Origin: a virus
Reading direction: 5' to 3' (one strand)
IMG/VR virus record: IMGVR_UViG_3300044491_003860
Location: 1 to 39,122 of that record
DNA length: 39,122 nt
Shown here: piece by piece, positions 5,041 to 38,205 of the stretch
Position numbering within the stretch: the first letter of the stretch is position 1
How the letters are laid out: every line of letters starts with the position of its first letter
Program-made: the position numbers and the translations under genes
Notes under the pieces: generated by a model
The model's input: the letters and a program-made list of their open reading frames with translations, nothing else
The model's database searches: none
Told to the model about the DNA's origin: nothing

Positions 5041-5733
5041 CTAAATATTTTTAGTAAAGATGAGTTCGATGTTGTGTTTTTTACCAATTCTGTTTGTCCA
5101 AATCTTATATCCACTGGTTTGATATTTTTCCACTATCTCGTCTAATCTATTAAAATTTACGTCTGTGTTGCCTATATCCATTTCGCATTCACATAGTATC
5201 ACTTTTGCCGGCAAAGACAAATCCAGTATTTCATTCAGCATCTCATACCATCGTCCTTCCACATCTAATTTTATAATATCCACTTCAGGGCCGTGCTGAT
5301 CAGCAATCTCTTTTAAATTTGTTGTTTGTACTTCTATCACATTCTCATATTTCTCCGGCTCATCTAATTGAAAACATTTGCCATCGCCAGCGATGTCGTA
5401 AAACTTCATTGTCTGCCCTGCAACTGTGTCATAGGCTTTGCTAGTATGAATAATGTTATAATCACCTCTATTGGCACTGTCTGTGGTCTGTTTTGATAGC
5501 GGAGTTGGATCAAAGGTCAAAATCTTTGCTGTGCGATTATCTTTCCTGCAATTGACTTCGTATCTAATCTCTCTCGATACACCAAAGTTCCAAAACATCT
5601 TTGCATTTTTCCTCACATGATCGGGTGTGCTGTACTGTTTGTACCGTGTCCACCCCTGTTGATTCACTGCACCACCACTGGGTGACAGAGTAAACCTGCT
5701 TTCGTACTCTCGGCAACGTTGTGAAATCTCCAT
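5041..5733 (-). CDS. FkbM-family SAM-dependent methyltransferase
   Basis: Transfers methyl from S-adenosylmethionine, in this family usually to a sugar or lipid-linked glycan hydroxyl. 230 residues from the ATG at 5733; a longer open frame to 5799 would run through the divergent promoter and overlap the opposite gene, so it was rejected. VDIIKLDVEGRW (about 151-162) is the FkbM signature, and residues 47-56 (FWNFGVSREI) plus FDPTP form the SAM-binding region. A late-promoter octamer ends 7 nt before the start and no Shine-Dalgarno is seen. It is divergent from the glycosyltransferase-like gene at 5762. Confidence 0.8.
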   Translation of the reverse strand: MEISQRCREYESRFTLSPSGGAVNQQGWTRYKQYSTPDHVRKNAKMFWNFGVSREIRYEVNCRKDNRTAKILTFDPTPLSKQTTDSANRGDYNIIHTSKAYDTVAGQTMKFYDIAGDGKCFQLDEPEKYENVIEVQTTNLKEIADQHGPEVDIIKLDVEGRWYEMLNEILDLSLPAKVILCECEMDIGNTDVNFNRLDEIVEKYQTSGYKIWTNRIGKKHNIELIFTKNI

Positions 5734-5740
5734 ACGGAAA

Positions 5741-5748
5741 TATTTATA
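5741..5748 (-). promoter_or_regulatory. Late promoter octamer, leaderless arrangement (FkbM gene)
   Basis: On the minus strand this reads TATAAATA, an exact T4 late consensus. Its last base is 7 nt from the ATG at 5733. T4 late promoters start transcription about six bases downstream of the octamer, so the message would begin at or just before the start codon. Confidence 0.6.
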
Positions 5749-5756
5749 GTTAAATA
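5749..5756 (+). promoter_or_regulatory. Late promoter octamer, leaderless arrangement (GT-like gene)
   Basis: GTTAAATA ends 5 nt before the GTG start at 5762. It is back-to-back with the minus-strand octamer, forming a compact divergent late promoter pair in a 28-nt gap. Confidence 0.55.
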
Positions 5757-5761
5757 TTCGT

Positions 5762-6436
5762 GTGAAAATATACGTGGGACACGACAGCAGAGAAGACATT
5801 GCTTACCAAGTCTGTGAGCATTCTATAAAAAGAAGAGATCCGTCAGCGGAAGTCATCCCCCTCAAACAAAAACAGATGCGAGACCAAGGTCTGTACACCA
5901 GACCTGTGGACAAGTTGGCATCAACCGAGTTCACATTCACTAGGTTCTTCGTGCCATACATGAATGACTTCAAGGGATGGGCAGTATTCTGTGACTGTGA
6001 TTTCCTATGGAAGATTCCAAGCCACGAACTTGAGAAATACTGTGATCCAAGCAAGGCTGTTGTTGTGGTGCAACATGATTACACGCCAAAAGAAACAACA
6101 AAAATGGATGGGCAGGTGCAGACATCATATCCCAGAAAGAACTGGTCCAGCATGGTGCTTTGGAACTGTGAACACCCCAAGAACAAAATACTAACACCAG
6201 AACTATTGAACGAAGAATCAGCAAAGTTCCTACACAGGTTTAGTTGGTTAGAAGATAGTGATATAGGTTCAATGCCCGCCGAGTACAACTGGTTGGTCGG
6301 TTGGTACAAGGAACCAAACGACGGCACACCCAAGATCCTGCATTACACCGAAGGCGGTCCATGGTTTGATGGTTATCGTCACTGTGAATATGCAGATGAT
6401 TGGAAAAAAGAACTTGTAAAGCTCTTTAGTTCTTAA
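5762..6436 (+). CDS. Glycosyltransferase-like protein with DxD motif
   Basis: A 224-residue GT-A-like protein. N-terminal MKIYVGHDSR resembles the first strand of GT8-type enzymes that read nucleotide-sugars. AVFCDCDFLW (about 74-83) carries the DxD metal-binding motif at 78-80. KILHYTEGGPWF near 199-210 is the C-terminal His/Gly motif typical of these folds. Start is GTG 5762, supported by the late promoter 5 nt upstream; there is no Shine-Dalgarno. Its stop overlaps that of the convergent FkbM gene at 6433. Donor and acceptor are unknown. Confidence 0.7.
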   Translation: MKIYVGHDSREDIAYQVCEHSIKRRDPSAEVIPLKQKQMRDQGLYTRPVDKLASTEFTFTRFFVPYMNDFKGWAVFCDCDFLWKIPSHELEKYCDPSKAVVVVQHDYTPKETTKMDGQVQTSYPRKNWSSMVLWNCEHPKNKILTPELLNEESAKFLHRFSWLEDSDIGSMPAEYNWLVGWYKEPNDGTPKILHYTEGGPWFDGYRHCEYADDWKKELVKLFSS

Positions 6437-7062
6437 ATTGGTTTGAAAATAACTTCGTTAACAATTTTCCTTACTTGTTGATATCCTAACTTTATTATTT
6501 TTTTAGTTAAAGTTTTTTTATCAGTATTGAACTCTTTTAAAGAAGAATTTTTCATCTCGAGGTGTAGGATTGGTTTTTGAGACACTATTAGTTCTTTGGC
6601 ACCGTTTATTATTTGCTCTTCCATACCTTGGCAATCTAACTTTATATAATCAATATCTTGTAATTTCAATTCATCCAATGGACAGGCAAGACAAGTCACA
6701 TTACCCAAGATACTAGGTTGACTTGCACCGCTTTGATTAAAGTCATATTTGAATTTTAATTTTTCTTTTTTGCTAGAAAGTGCTAAATTATATAAGGTGT
6801 AATTTTTTTCTAAAATATTTTTTTTAAAACAGTTGGCAACTTCTATTATCGGCTCGAAAGCATGTACCCACTGGAACCTTTTCACTAAATCTACACTCCA
6901 TGTGCCAACGTGAGCACCTCCATCAACACAATGTCTAAACTTACAGCCAATTTTATCTAAAGTTTCTAACACTGCTTTCCTAGTTTCGTATTGGTATGAA
7001 TCGTTTCTGATTCCCGCAAGAAAATTATCGTTCATAGATGGAAATACAAATTTCGTTGTCAT
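6433..7062 (-). CDS. FkbM-family methyltransferase (AT-rich)
   Basis: A second SAM-dependent FkbM methyltransferase of 209 residues. HCVDGGAHVGTWS (44-56) is SAM motif I, HAFEP (68-72) follows, and DYIKLDCQGMEEQ (139-151) is the family signature. It starts 4 nt before the stop of the GT-B-like gene upstream on the same strand, so the two are coupled. Base composition is visibly more AT-rich than its neighbours, with many Lys, Asn and Ile codons ending in A or T, suggesting separate recent acquisition. Confidence 0.8.
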   Translation of the reverse strand: MTTKFVFPSMNDNFLAGIRNDSYQYETRKAVLETLDKIGCKFRHCVDGGAHVGTWSVDLVKRFQWVHAFEPIIEVANCFKKNILEKNYTLYNLALSSKKEKLKFKYDFNQSGASQPSILGNVTCLACPLDELKLQDIDYIKLDCQGMEEQIINGAKELIVSQKPILHLEMKNSSLKEFNTDKKTLTKKIIKLGYQQVRKIVNEVIFKPI

Positions 7063-8540: not shown

Positions 8541-9629
8541 ATGCCAGTAAAAAACATTAGCTCACTGAAGTATTTCCTCGACCGTTGGGAGACGGTGGAC
8601 CCGGAATACAATTACACTGTGCCCTATCATGACTCAATCGATCCAAACTTTTCAAGTTTACCAACCTTTGTTGCCGAATTCCACAACTGTAAAATACACA
8701 CCTGCCCATTGTTGCTGACTAGGGAAAACAAACTGATTACGGAACACGTATGGAAACTGACTCACAAGCGTAGACACAAACCTCAGCAGAGTCATGGCCT
8801 GTGGGAAGATTGGGACACCGAGATGGATATTACACTACCACCAGTCACAGAATCTTTCAATGAGACCAACACCTACGTGTGGTTGCCGGTGGATGATGAG
8901 AGCAAGGCAAACCCTTGGCACATCTGGATAGACGTCATCTCGAAGTTCAGATTGTTAGAGAAGAGATGGTCCACAAACTTTTCAAGATACTGTTTTATAT
9001 TAGCCAATCACAGTCCTTACTTTGAGAAAGTGTGCAAGGAACTTTTTCCCGATGTGAAAATTATTGTGATGCCTAAAGGATCAACTTGGCAGTTCAAACA
9101 TCTCATAGTGCCAAGCATGAGCAATTCTCATGATGGTGTGATAGTGCCTCCAATGGCGCCATGGCTGAGACATTTCAAAGGATTGAAAAATTTGAAAGGT
9201 GTAAAACCACACAGGAAGATAGTTGTTTTGAGGCCTGGGGCCAAAACCAGGAGAATGATTAACTCAGACGAATTATTGTTGAAACTCAAAGGCTGGGAAA
9301 CTGTGGCTCTGGAGAATCTAAGTATAAAGGACCAAATGAAGACCTTTGCTGAGGCATCACATGTACTTGCGGCACACGGAGCAGGCATGGTCAATCTATT
9401 GTGGTGCCAGCCCGGAACAAAAGTTATTGAGGTCCAGGACAGAAACATGCTACACAAGAAAGTGTATCCATTGTTGTCGCACAATTTAAATCTAGAACAC
9501 AAATTATATCTAGCAGACGTAGTGCCAATACCCAGAGAAAACGGAGCAAAGGTACACGGTGTCAAAAGATTCAGTGACATGATAAACTTCAAGATTAACA
9601 TTCCAGAGATAATGGAGCATCTAGAATGA
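8541..9629 (+). CDS. GT61 (DUF563) glycosyltransferase
   Basis: A 362-residue protein with the hallmarks of glycosyltransferase family 61: VLRPGAKTRRMIN (229-241, conserved Arg and Asn), then the LENLSIKDQMKTFAEA segment (258-272), then LAAHGAGMVNLLW (276-288, His279-Gly-Ala-Gly) and a KVIEVQD strand. GT61 enzymes usually add xylose, GlcNAc or related sugars. It heads a rightward seven-gene unit (8541-14698) in which every junction overlaps. No Shine-Dalgarno precedes the ATG; an AT-rich TATTATAAC element lies in the 32-nt divergent gap. Confidence 0.85.
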   Translation: MPVKNISSLKYFLDRWETVDPEYNYTVPYHDSIDPNFSSLPTFVAEFHNCKIHTCPLLLTRENKLITEHVWKLTHKRRHKPQQSHGLWEDWDTEMDITLPPVTESFNETNTYVWLPVDDESKANPWHIWIDVISKFRLLEKRWSTNFSRYCFILANHSPYFEKVCKELFPDVKIIVMPKGSTWQFKHLIVPSMSNSHDGVIVPPMAPWLRHFKGLKNLKGVKPHRKIVVLRPGAKTRRMINSDELLLKLKGWETVALENLSIKDQMKTFAEASHVLAAHGAGMVNLLWCQPGTKVIEVQDRNMLHKKVYPLLSHNLNLEHKLYLADVVPIPRENGAKVHGVKRFSDMINFKINIPEIMEHLE

Positions 9630-27866: not shown

Positions 27867-28805
27867 CTAGAATGTGAACTTGATTCCAGCCGCCATGTCT
27901 GCTGTGTCTGTGCCTGACACCACGTCAGTCATTTCATAGCCAGCGTACATGCTGAAGTTGTCACCGATCTTCTTCTCGGCACCAACTGTTGTGTAGGCAG
28001 TCCCACTCTTGACTTTACCGTAACCCACTGAGAACGTCGTGTCTCCCACTGTGTGTGAGGCAACGTACTCGTTGGCTTTGGTGTCAAGATTGGTTGATTC
28101 CACTGTCTTGATCGTGTGGTTGTAACCGATCGTTGTGGCATCTGTGATGTCAAATGATGCACCAACACCTTTGTACTCGATGTTGTTCACCTTGTCATCC
28201 GTGTAGGCGATACCCACGTTTAGGCCGTCGCTGATGTCCATAGAGGCCGCAGTCTCGTAGACGTCAACACCTGATTTACCAGTTGTGCCGTCAACTTTTA
28301 CCAAGTTGTCGAACTGGATCGCACCAATGCTGTTAGAGTAGATCACTGTGTGTGAATCTCTGCTGAACAGTACCTGTGCGGCACTGGCGCCGTATTCTGG
28401 GAACACATCTGTCTTAGACGTCACAGCACCCTTGAACACAGAGTTCTGTCTTCCTGCTGATAGCACACCTGCGCCACCCATGTCAATGCCGGCGAAGGCC
28501 AGTTTTGAATCGAAGGGTGTAGAACCAGAGTCATCCGCGTCGATCGCCACTTCTAACTTGGCGAAGCCATCGATGCCCTCTGCGATGTTGCTTGTGAAGT
28601 CAACACCAATAGCGGAACCGTTGTTCTCTGCTTTTGCTGTTGACACGCCGTTAGCGTCTTCGTTGTTTGACAGCATGTAGTTCAGTGAACCATACACCTT
28701 CATCTCCGTCGCTTCGGCTGGGGCCGGTTTGAACACCGCCCATAAAACTATAAGTGCCACTACTATGGCCGCACCTATAGCCATCTTCTTGCTTGTTATC
28801 TTCAT
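27867..28805 (-). CDS. Gram-negative outer-membrane porin
   Basis: 312 residues. N-terminal signal: basic MKITSKK, hydrophobic 8-25, and a PAPAEA-type cleavage site near residue 32. The mature part alternates polar and hydrophobic residues as transmembrane beta strands, opens with MKVYGSLNYML, and ends IKFTF, the terminal aromatic needed for BAM insertion. This matches general diffusion porins of the Porin_4 type (about 300 residues). Start is supported by AGGAGA about 10 nt upstream, unlike the leaderless-type late genes. Likely roles are receptor replacement or altered uptake in the infected cell. Confidence 0.85.
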   Translation of the reverse strand: MKITSKKMAIGAAIVVALIVLWAVFKPAPAEATEMKVYGSLNYMLSNNEDANGVSTAKAENNGSAIGVDFTSNIAEGIDGFAKLEVAIDADDSGSTPFDSKLAFAGIDMGGAGVLSAGRQNSVFKGAVTSKTDVFPEYGASAAQVLFSRDSHTVIYSNSIGAIQFDNLVKVDGTTGKSGVDVYETAASMDISDGLNVGIAYTDDKVNNIEYKGVGASFDITDATTIGYNHTIKTVESTNLDTKANEYVASHTVGDTTFSVGYGKVKSGTAYTTVGAEKKIGDNFSMYAGYEMTDVVSGTDTADMAAGIKFTF

Positions 28806-35070: not shown

Positions 35071-35673
35071 TTAATTAGTCTGATCGTCATCGGCCCTGCT
35101 GGTGATCACCCGGTCCACTAGCCCGTACGCCACGGCTTCCTCGGCATTCATGAACTTGTCACGCTCCATGTCCGCCTTGAGCTTCTCTAGTGGCTGTCCC
35201 GTTGTCTTCTGATATATCTCTGTTAGTTCTCGTTTCCAACGCAGTAGTTCGTTTGCTCTGATCTCAACATCAGTGGCCTGTCCACTCGCCCCGCCTAGTG
35301 GTTGATGTATCATGTGTCGTGCGTGTGGCAACATCATACGTTTGCCTTTGGTTCCCGCACTTGCTAGGAGTGAGCCCATGCTACATGCCTGGCCCACCAC
35401 TATTGTTTGTATGTCTGATCTCACATACTGCATGGTGTCGTATATCGCCATGCCTGCCGTTACCAGTCCGCCTGGCGAATTGATATAAAGTGTTATATCC
35501 TTCGAGGCATCTTGTGATTCCAAGAATAACAGTTGAGCACACAACACTGATGCGGTGTGTTCCTCTATCGGTCCTTCCAACATGATTATCCTGTCCTTTA
35601 GAAGCCTACTGAAAATGTCGTAACTTCTCTCGCCTTTGGATGTCTGTTCTATCACTATTGGTGTAAGTGGCAT
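35071..35673 (-). CDS. clpP: ClpP-like serine protease
   Basis: Tetradecameric protease subunit acting with an AAA+ unfoldase. 200 residues, the usual length. Catalytic triad is visible: Ser98 in GQACSMGSL, His123 in HMIHQPLGG, Asp172 in MERDKFM. INSPGG (65-70) is the substrate-binding strand. Head and handle helices are full, so it should be active. Whether it uses the host ClpX/ClpA or matures virions cannot be told. Upstream TATTATAAC overlaps the start region; it heads the leftward unit clpP, tiny membrane peptide, bL33. Confidence 0.93.
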
Positions 35674-35865: not shown

Positions 35866-36822
35866 ATGCCACAACTTTTCACAACGCTAGGTCCCAGCAC
35901 ACTCACACCAGAATTCCTGGGCCACCTGGATGGTCAAGTGGACCTACTGCGTTTGAACATGAGCCACATGACTGTCGCCGGCATGGTGGATGCCATAGAT
36001 GAGATAAGACGGCACACCGACGTGCCCATATGTGTGGACACCGAAGGTGCACAGATCAGGACTGCAAACGTGGACGAACGTGACTACAACATGGACGACA
36101 CGTTGGTGTTCGGAACGGAACAGATCACGCCCACGGAGGCATGGGATCAGATACGGCCCGGCGACACCATGATCATAGGATTCGATGGACTCCAGGTCCG
36201 GGTCGTGGAGGCGGACACCTACGCCATGACCTGCCGATGCACACAGTCGGGCAGGCTGTCTCCCAACAAGGGAGTGCATGTGGCGGAGCACCAGGTGACG
36301 TTGCCCGCGTTGTCGAGCAAGGACCACCAGGCCATCACGACAGCACGTGCAATGGGCATAGAAACCTTCGCCCTGAGTTTCACACAGAACGCACAGTCGA
36401 TCGAGCAATTCGAACGTCTGTTGCCGGGACACAGGCTGATATACAAAATAGAGACCAGGAGTGCCATGGCGGACCTTGAGAACATGTTCCGCTCGGGCAG
36501 GCAGTTCCTGATAGATCGCGGGGATCTGGGCAAGGAGATCGGTGCCGAACAGGTGCCGGTGGCCCAACGCAGGGTCATGCGCCAACGCGACCTCACACCA
36601 GGCACACAGGTGTACATGGCCACCAACTTCCTGGAGAGCATGATAACCCGATCGGAGCCGACCCGGGCCGAGATATCGGACGTGTACACCGCACTGGAGC
36701 AGGGTGCGGATGGTCTTGTGCTGGCGGCGGAGACCGCCATAGGCCAGCACCCAATGGAGTGCGTGAGGCAGGTGCATCGCATATTTGAAGTGTTCCAGCA
36801 GAACGGCGGGACGGCCACGTGA
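35866..36822 (+). CDS. Pyruvate-kinase-like enzyme lacking the C-terminal domain
   Basis: 318 residues against about 470 for bacterial pyruvate kinase. TTLGPST (6-12), LRLNMSH (28-34: Arg29, Asn31, Ser33, His34), CVDTEGAQIRT (56-66), LSPNKGV, LPALSSKDH, ALSFTQN, IYKIET (192-197: Lys194, Glu196), DRGDLG (217-222) and MATNFLESM (251-259: Thr253) are all in order, followed by PTRAEISDV and AAETAIG. Thus the A and B domains and the phosphoryl-transfer and metal residues are present. The allosteric C domain is missing, and DTKGPE is changed to DTEGAQ. It may make ATP and pyruvate, or use another phosphoenol substrate, for example in sugar decoration. The region is GC-richer than its surroundings. 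Confidence 0.85.
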   Translation: MPQLFTTLGPSTLTPEFLGHLDGQVDLLRLNMSHMTVAGMVDAIDEIRRHTDVPICVDTEGAQIRTANVDERDYNMDDTLVFGTEQITPTEAWDQIRPGDTMIIGFDGLQVRVVEADTYAMTCRCTQSGRLSPNKGVHVAEHQVTLPALSSKDHQAITTARAMGIETFALSFTQNAQSIEQFERLLPGHRLIYKIETRSAMADLENMFRSGRQFLIDRGDLGKEIGAEQVPVAQRRVMRQRDLTPGTQVYMATNFLESMITRSEPTRAEISDVYTALEQGADGLVLAAETAIGQHPMECVRQVHRIFEVFQQNGGTAT

Positions 36823-37397
36823 ACAGCGACAGATGGCTGATAAAGTCAGCGGGTCGCACGGCGTCACACCTGCTGTTGGGCACGGTGGAACAGGCCGGCT
36901 ACGAGCTGTGTTGGACCGAACGGCACACCACCGACCGCCAGCGCCGGGACCAGTTGGCGAGACCTGGTGCACAGGTGTGGTATGATCACCAGAGGGGATG
37001 GCCGAATCCGGAAGTTGAATGGCGATGCGTGTTGATACGCAGGAGGGACTTCAGATCACAGGTGTTGAGCAAGATACTGAGCCAACGCACACAGGAGTTC
37101 GTTGTGTACTCGGATCGTGAGATGCAACGCTCCACGATCACCCGGGAGGAGTTCGACTGGACCGCCCAATTCGTCACAGACTGTGAGAGGGAGTGGATGA
37201 CCACGGCACCGGGCCCTGTCGAGGTGACCACACGTGAGGCGCTGATAGAGGACGTGCATGGGGTGGCCCGCACACTGGGATTCCGGGTGGATGAACGACA
37301 CCGCTCCAGGTTCCAGATCAATCCCAGGCCCCTGGAGACCTTATGTGAGAACTGGCGGCAGGTGCAGAGTTGGCCGTTGCCACCACGCGACATCTGA
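36819..37397 (+). CDS. Sulfotransferase-like protein (Stf0 type), tentative
   Basis: 192 residues from a GTG that overlaps the preceding stop by 4 nt. WLIKSAGRTASHLL (6-19) resembles the PAPS 5'-phosphosulfate loop, and CVLIRRRDFRSQVLSKIL (70-87) the 3'-phosphate-binding Arg...Ser helix of Stf0 sulfotransferases, which move sulfate from PAPS to sugars. Other parts are divergent. It is the coupled partner of the pyruvate-kinase-like gene and shares its GC-rich composition. Confidence 0.55.
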   Translation: MNSDRWLIKSAGRTASHLLLGTVEQAGYELCWTERHTTDRQRRDQLARPGAQVWYDHQRGWPNPEVEWRCVLIRRRDFRSQVLSKILSQRTQEFVVYSDREMQRSTITREEFDWTAQFVTDCEREWMTTAPGPVEVTTREALIEDVHGVARTLGFRVDERHRSRFQINPRPLETLCENWRQVQSWPLPPRDI

Positions 37398-37518: not shown

Positions 37519-38205
37519 ATGCGGGAATCCCTGTATCAAAATATTTTCCATCGTGACTGTGAAGATCCAAAAAAAACTTGGGCCAAGAATAGACACAATG
37601 TCACTTATGCTGTAGGCATGCTACTGCCGTTGCTCACGACAAAGACGTACTTCGACGTGGGTGCCAACATCGGTGTACATGCTTGGTTGTGTAATCAATT
37701 CGACGTGGATGTCTACTGTTTTGAACCGAATCCTGCCCTCAACAAGTACATCTGGTGGAATTCGAGACCCAAACAACTTTTCAATGTCGCGGTGGGTGAT
37801 TACAACGGCACAGCACATTTCACGACCAAAACACAATCGCCCGGGAATCATGTGATAAAAAACAAGAGTGCCGACAGCACGACGGTCAACATTAGAAAAA
37901 TCGACGACATGACATTGCCCCCGCCGGGCATGATGAAATTCGACGTCGAGGGGCACGAGACATCAGCCATCAAGGGAGCATCCGCCACAATCACTAAATT
38001 TCATCCATGGATAGTCGTGGAAGACAAATTCACCAGGGCAGAGGTCCACAAAGCCCTGACAGAACTGGACTACACAAAACACAGCCAATGGACCAAGGAT
38101 AGCATCTGGCACCACCACGACAATCCCATCACGGTGGAAACCATAGTGTTACCACCAATCGACAGGGATCTAAGAAAATTATCACCAAAAGATTGGCAAT
38201 GGTAG
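37519..38205 (+). CDS. FkbM-family methyltransferase, third copy
   Basis: 228 residues. TYFDVGANIGVHAW (43-56) is SAM motif I, VYCFEPNPALNKY follows at about 65, and MMKFDVEGHETSAIKGA (about 135-151) is the FkbM signature, nearer to consensus than in the two island copies. The C-terminus is Asp/Lys-rich with IWHHHDNP. It is probably transcribed alone as a late gene. Confidence 0.85.
   Translation: MRESLYQNIFHRDCEDPKKTWAKNRHNVTYAVGMLLPLLTTKTYFDVGANIGVHAWLCNQFDVDVYCFEPNPALNKYIWWNSRPKQLFNVAVGDYNGTAHFTTKTQSPGNHVIKNKSADSTTVNIRKIDDMTLPPPGMMKFDVEGHETSAIKGASATITKFHPWIVVEDKFTRAEVHKALTELDYTKHSQWTKDSIWHHHDNPITVETIVLPPIDRDLRKLSPKDWQW

Follow-up and report, generated by a model that had tools for sequence, protein, structure and literature searches.

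In the textbook description PAPS is synthesised by two enzymes. The PAPS synthetases, such as those of Aquifex (2gks) and human (PAPSS), fuse these sulfate-activation steps, ATP sulfurylase (Sat) and APS kinase, in one polypeptide, and to our knowledge none of them carries a pyruvate kinase (PK) domain. Canonical PKs, exemplified by PykF of E. coli, combine the PK barrel (Pfam PF00224) with a C-terminal domain, PK_C; PKs without the latter are represented in NCBIfam by PRK06739 (352 positions). Here we describe a phage gene for a PK-like protein that probably helps to decorate molecules with sulfate rather than to run glycolysis. It lies in an IMG/VR virus record of 39,122 bases (the whole stretch of DNA analysed, hereafter the window), which bears homologues of gp32, UvsX/RecA, primase, DnaB and DNA polymerase; these markers identify it as part of the genome of a marine T4-like phage, 39 kb in length. 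The DnaB is closest to those of PA5oct-type jumbo phages (54% identity).

The open reading frame starts with ATG, encodes 318 amino acids and is intact and free of frameshifts (Table 1). Its product matched the Pfam PK barrel profile from position 7 to the last of its 328 positions, with an E-value of 4.4e-50. No PK_C or other Pfam match was found in the protein and the reading frame stops after the barrel, leaving the A and B domains only. A first-pass annotation of this DNA had read the gene as just such a barrel lacking the C-terminal domain and had proposed the Pfam PK profile search, which thus bore it out. The top matches among PDB sequences were all pyruvate kinases. An AF2 model built from 22 family members had a mean pLDDT of 91.6, and its top Foldseek matches in the PDB were PK crystal structures (6su1, E 3e-32), in agreement with the PK fold that the annotation had assigned while allowing that an unrelated fold might be predicted. 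In length and domain content the protein is like PRK06739, against which it scored 121.9 bits where the cut-off is 564. A second phage contig, independent of the first (L004; IMGVR_UViG_3300044491_002358), has an intact copy that is 79% identical. Comparison of the two genes gave dN 0.14 and dS 0.70, and the ratio of about 0.19 indicates purifying selection. Because of this second intact copy, these rates and the intact reading frame, the gene is judged real and functional, and the frameshift or contig artefact against which the annotation had cautioned can be dismissed.

Active-site residues were compared, in PykF numbering, between 84 rows of the family and 15 canonical PKs, of which one was PykF and 14 were drawn from the same genomes. 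R32, N34, S36, D66, R73, K220, E222, R244, G245, D246, T278 and E314 are kept in 84/84 family rows, as also is K156, a residue that 87% of the canonical set share. The window protein shares with canonical PKs the barrel and B domain, the K+-site Asp and Thr, the catalytic Lys (K194), the metal-binding Glu and Asp (E196 and D220), the Arg (R29) and the PEP-carboxylate Thr (T253). Lys194, Glu196, Asp220 and Thr253 had been picked out in the first-pass annotation and align with PykF K220, E222, D246 and T278.

Other positions set the family apart. The annotation had noted that canonical DTKGPE is replaced by DTEGAQ, and this is indeed so. All 84 family rows have Glu at PykF position 68 and Gln at position 71, a combination unlike either of the pairs seen in canonical PKs (K/E or Q/K), although DTEGAQ formed part of the search pattern and its fixation is therefore partly by construction. 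A243 is replaced by Asp in 84/84 rows (Ala in 15/15 canonical PKs), S312 by Ala in 83/84 (Ser in 15/15) and the B-domain D127 by Phe in 82/84 (invariant Asp across 15/15), and the window protein itself has Asp, Ala and Phe at these positions. M310V and G248S are further changes around the active site seen across many phyla. These five columns lie outside the search patterns, so that their fixation is independent of the search. The family signature (D[TS]EGAQ, IDRGD, ATN, AAET) is complete in the window protein, and residues 222 and 271 are its sole differences from the 90% consensus. Position 279 was not used as an argument because the Gln there varies among PKs at large, being Ala in 7ueh. 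In Cryptosporidium PK, Ser362, the equivalent of S312, touches the active-site ligand, and PK active sites can be occupied by sulfate (PMC3467265). The annotation's suggestion of an enzyme altered for a different substrate is encouraged by these several fixed changes. Taken with the small size of copies without PK_C, such changes might also point to an inactive scaffold or regulator that binds only ADP/PEP or partner enzymes, but the phosphoryl-transfer Lys, Glu, Asp, Arg and Thr are conserved in 84/84 rows and the phage copies are under purifying selection, and this we consider extremely improbable.

Table 1. Coordinates of features in the window and in related loci.
Feature	Positions	Strand	Remarks
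PK-like barrel protein, D[TS]EGAQ family member	35866..36822	+	PF00224, AF2/Foldseek, tree
DTEGAQ, residues 58-63, monovalent-cation/phosphate loop	36037..36054	+	canonical DTKGPE or DLQGPK
K194-I-E196, catalytic Lys and metal-binding Glu (PykF K220/E222)	36445..36453	+	invariant in family and canonical PKs
IDRGDL, residues 216-221	36511..36528	+	canonical VARGDL; Ala to Asp at 217; metal-binding D220 kept
ATNFLESM, residues 252-259	36619..36642	+	canonical ATQMLESM; T253 kept
LAAETAIG, residues 286-293	36721..36744	+	canonical LSxETAxG; active-site Ser to Ala at 287
Second cassette gene, candidate sulfotransferase-like	36819..37397	+	192 aa, GTG start overlapping PK stop
RTAS, residues 13-16 of second gene, possible 5'-phosphosulfate-binding loop	36855..36866	+	inferred; weak hhalign alignment to GRTGS of neighbouring sulfotransferases
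ClpP-like protease, window	35071-35673	-	PF00574, E 1e-82
ClpP-like protease, L004	L004:2384-2986	+
Gram-negative porin match, window	27867-28805	-	PF00267, E 8.6e-9
FkbM methyltransferase, window	5041-5799	-
FkbM methyltransferase, window	6433-7062	-
FkbM methyltransferase, window	37519-38205	+
GT61 glycosyltransferase, window	8541-9629	+
TctA permease-like and TctC binding protein-like genes	L004:6661-8061; L004:8346-9218		by eye
apr operon and small nucleotidyltransferase	L019:1257-6077; L136:2582-6214; L137:2660-6295; L138:2576-6200
Phages with small nucleotidyltransferase relative	INPHARED MZ326855, OR548257, OR797045, OR820514, KU682439
Woesearchaeota three-domain chain	L081:7983-10784
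Divergent PK-like ORF (DTHGKK)	L114:501-1238

Relatives were retrieved by alignment-based scans; single-protein scans of viral and genome collections with over-specific peptide patterns returned none. The closest non-phage matches were unannotated genes on rhizobial megaplasmids (36-37% identity to the window protein), each encoding a single protein made up of PK, PUA_2 and ATP-sulfurylase domains, with the DTEGAQ motif and no PK_C. An APS kinase gene comes next and the region includes an O-antigen ligase-like gene; this domain order, followed by APS kinase, is that of L002. A genome scan with the family alignment gave 222 relatives. Genome loci were located by the patterns C[LV]DTEGAQ or ATN[LF]LESM, so that these two motifs are to some extent fixed by the search itself. 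The best 80 of the 222, which were retained, belong to archaea and to bacteria (Pelagibacteraceae, marine gamma- and alphaproteobacteria, rhizobia, Omnitrophota, Elusimicrobiota, Myxococcota, Acidobacteriota, Actinomycetota, Verrucomicrobiota, Chloroflexota and Nitrospinota) from the sea, soil and groundwater. ATP sulfurylase is fused in about 40 of 82 non-viral members; other members of the family, the SAR11 and phage copies among them, are standalone. One Woesearchaeota member joins PK-like, ATP sulfurylase and APS kinase domains in a single chain of 933 amino acids (Table 1).

In the tree the family is monophyletic and separate from the canonical PKs with support of 100/100. The window and L004 copies are nested, on a long branch, in a clade of Pelagibacteraceae (26 rows, 100/92). 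A further phage copy, on contig L112, also falls within the SAR11 group and that of phage contig L113 groups with marine alphaproteobacteria, which implies two or more separate acquisitions by phages. The annotation had called for a survey of related phage contigs, and L004, L112 and L113 are such contigs. INPHARED contains PK genes at 26-47% identity, mostly in unannotated fecal or short records, none of them close to that of the window. A divergent PK-like reading frame was also seen on an IMG/VR contig (L114) with sugar/polysaccharide-type genes, and is possibly of a different PK-like subfamily, or the contig possibly misclassified. The absence of PK_C and the DTEGAQ motif are features ancestral to the whole bacterial and archaeal clade. 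The annotation was thus right that a phage encodes a PK-fold protein without the C-terminal regulatory domain, but the gene is not a glycolytic enzyme truncated specifically in a phage.

The gene context of the family is one of sulfate activation and sulfation, not of glycolysis. Across 86 PK-like loci, with a neighbourhood of 8 kb, Sat or a small HxGH nucleotidyltransferase was present at 51, an APS-kinase-like gene also at 51 (within 200 bp at 41 of these) and a sulfotransferase at 49, the last an approximate count since the profiles were seeded by four proteins matching Pfam Sulfotransfer families. At least one of the three was found at 80/86 loci; the window and L004 are among the six that lack them. 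By comparison, no Sat, small nucleotidyltransferase or sulfotransferase was seen at any of 18 canonical PK loci of the same genomes, which together gave a single weak APS-kinase (P-loop) match (E 1e-5). Linkage extends to phages. On L112 the genes for a sulfotransferase, the PK-like protein and the small nucleotidyltransferase follow one another head to tail with overlapping ends, and on L113 kinase and nucleotidyltransferase genes lie about 1.7 kb upstream of the PK-like gene. The phage partner kinase and nucleotidyltransferase match phrog_10255 ('kinase'), one half each.

These data bear on whether the window gene is simply an auxiliary metabolic gene of the usual kind, encoding a deregulated pyruvate kinase to raise ATP and pyruvate in the infected cell. 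The PK fold, the catalytic residues and the existence of C-terminal-domain-less PKs in NCBIfam would all suit such a role, but the window protein scores too low for the curated PK models of NCBIfam (214.7 bits, where the TIGR01064 equivalog cut-off is 306.4) and is nested in a sulfation-linked clade, while canonical PKs of the same genomes have no such linkage. We regard this explanation as improbable.

The fused Sats have a peculiarity of their own. Wherever readable they have FH[TSG]RN; the residue corresponding to the His is Gln in the displayed ATP sulfurylases of the PDB and also in ten separate Sats encoded by the same genomes. The equivalent Gln of Allochromatium Sat contacts the sulfate of APS (PMC3779200). 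His in place of this residue could mean a different substrate. With the PK pocket remodelled and Gln changed to His in the fused Sat, the oxyanion chemistry is therefore likely to be special in both halves of the fusion.

The SAR11 sample comprised 24 genomes with a standalone PK-like gene; these are incomplete single-cell or metagenome assemblies, so that absences are statistical. Sat was found in 0/24 and CysD in one, while the small nucleotidyltransferase is present in 20/24, the CysD genome being among the four without. In four genomes (4/10 of those bearing AprA) this HxGH protein of about 125 amino acids is encoded directly in the aprM-aprB-aprA operon (Table 1), the product of which is APS. 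Because it sits in the apr operon and is absent from the CysD genome, the data suggest that the small nucleotidyltransferase is a compact replacement for ATP sulfurylase and that APS is the thread common to all partners. It is also a candidate for the missing ATP sulfurylase in SAR11 sulfite oxidation. Two other ideas were abandoned: AprA as a general source of APS for PK-like genomes, AprA being over the cut-off in only 10/24 SAR11 genomes, and standalone members without any adenylyltransferase, dropped for SAR11 in view of the 20/24 genomes above. Relatives of the small nucleotidyltransferase (39-44% identity) occur in isolated phages of Stenotrophomonas, Xanthomonas and Clavibacter.

HxGH nucleotidyltransferases usually act on phosphomonoesters, and the Campylobacter phosphoramidate pathway activates its group via a 3'-phospho-adenylyl donor. 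In a look-alike pathway of this kind the PK-like protein would make a phospho group, the Sat-like or HxGH protein would adenylylate it, the APS-kinase-like protein would add the 3'-phosphate and a sulfotransferase-fold protein would transfer the product. The altered PK pocket and the His of the fused Sat could be accommodated, but the fused Sat of L034 exceeds curated sulfate adenylyltransferase cut-offs, true Sulfotransfer_1/3 matches are among the neighbours in family loci, and the small nucleotidyltransferase stands in the apr operon and is replaced by CysD in one SAR11 genome. Activation of a group other than sulfate is thus decidedly improbable.

We infer that the family is a PK-type phosphotransferase dedicated to a PAPS-making (sulfation) module. 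Membership in the module is very likely, because of the separate clade, the Sat fusions, the linkage at 80/86 loci set against the 18-locus control, the L112 and L113 phages and the retained catalytic residues. The exact chemistry, PEP + ADP -> ATP + pyruvate with removal of the ADP left by APS kinase, can be proposed only tentatively. Opinion is evenly balanced on the combined statement, that the window gene is a phage copy of a PK-like family serving PAPS synthesis most likely by recycling ADP to ATP. Unchanged PK chemistry is opposed by A243D, S312A and D127F at positions invariant in the canonical set. Counting against the combined statement, a separate full-length canonical PK is already encoded in many host-side genomes, the window shows no recognisable Sat, small nucleotidyltransferase, APS kinase or sulfotransferase, the second gene described below has no significant family match, and the His of the fused Sats could mean a different substrate.

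The same substitutions favour a new reaction in sulfate activation, in which the energy of PEP (or ATP) would be coupled directly to APS or PAPS formation, or an APS- or sulfate-containing ligand would occupy the remodelled PEP pocket; the 'different phosphoenol substrate' of the first-pass annotation is one form of this. The concerted changes at five search-independent columns across many phyla, the consistent replacement of the sulfate-binding Gln by His in the fused Sat and the sulfate reported in PK active sites (PMC3467265) all point this way, as do three alphaproteobacterial MAGs with the PK-like gene and APS kinase in which no APS-forming enzyme was found. However, all phosphoryl-transfer residues are kept and are compatible with ordinary PK chemistry, and the MAGs are incomplete; a new reaction is possible but doubtful. 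In its strongest form, a third core sulfate-activation enzyme whose reaction is not PEP:ADP phosphotransfer and through which phages control host sulfation, the proposal is likewise somewhat unlikely.

In the window the PK-like gene overlaps the next gene by four bases, and L004 has the same overlapping pair with a second gene 75% identical to that of the window. Both window genes are GC-rich (GC 0.59 and 0.60, GC3 0.73 and 0.74) compared with 0.43 for the rest of the contig, as are those of L004 (0.62 and 0.58 compared with 0.44). The two look like one acquired cassette, and its high GC does not look like recent transfer from AT-rich SAR11. GRTAS and RRRDFRSQ stretches of the second product resemble sulfotransferase motifs by eye, and it is possibly a sulfotransferase. 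Searches of Pfam (including Sulfotransfer), NCBIfam and the PDB (phmmer), run along with PHROGs, returned no match from the first three; hhalign against sulfotransferases gave a probability of at most 2% and the AF2 model a pLDDT of 38.

A full-length ClpP-like protease gene adjoins the cassette in both contigs, in opposite relative orientation, as if either had moved. The window also has a match to Gram-negative porins, and L004 two genes resembling a tripartite carboxylate transporter (Table 1). Three FkbM methyltransferases and a GT61 glycosyltransferase in the window are consistent with glycan modification by this phage.

Under the preferred reading, PAPS synthesis aided by recycling of ADP, the protein, which retains what PKs need for Mg-dependent phosphoryl transfer, would still use phosphoenolpyruvate and an adenine nucleotide. 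ADP from APS kinase would be turned back to ATP where PAPS is made, and the unfavourable APS and PAPS steps would be pulled forward, free of allosteric control. During infection the phage gene would be expressed with the overlapping downstream gene, possibly for a sulfotransferase, and a surface glycan or other molecule might be sulfated, the APS-making enzymes being supplied by the host or by some region of the phage genome that lies beyond the fragment.

If this is correct, a missing component of bacterial sulfation has been identified, a compact sulfate-activation set is suggested for SAR11, the most abundant bacteria of the ocean, and phages have a route to altering host or virion surfaces. 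No description of a PK-ATP sulfurylase fusion or of the PK-like family was found in the open-access literature, which was the scope of the search, as distinct from subscription papers and preprints. The fold is known and the family is widespread but, as far as found, undescribed; new chemistry, if proven, would add more. PHROG 25828 (unknown function), matched by the window protein at 8.9e-40, and PHROG 10255 are annotated without a sulfate-activation assignment. From canonical PKs the window protein differs in having no PK_C, in a DTEGAQ loop of neither the DTKGPE nor the DLQGPK type and in its active-site substitutions. Like the PAPS synthetases, its relatives have Sat fused and APS kinase adjoining or fused, with FH[TSG]RN rather than the FQTRN of the known synthetases. 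To the two enzymes of the textbook pathway is added a third, PK-like protein; in many phyla it is either encoded next to them or fused with them, and at least three phage contigs besides the window carry it.
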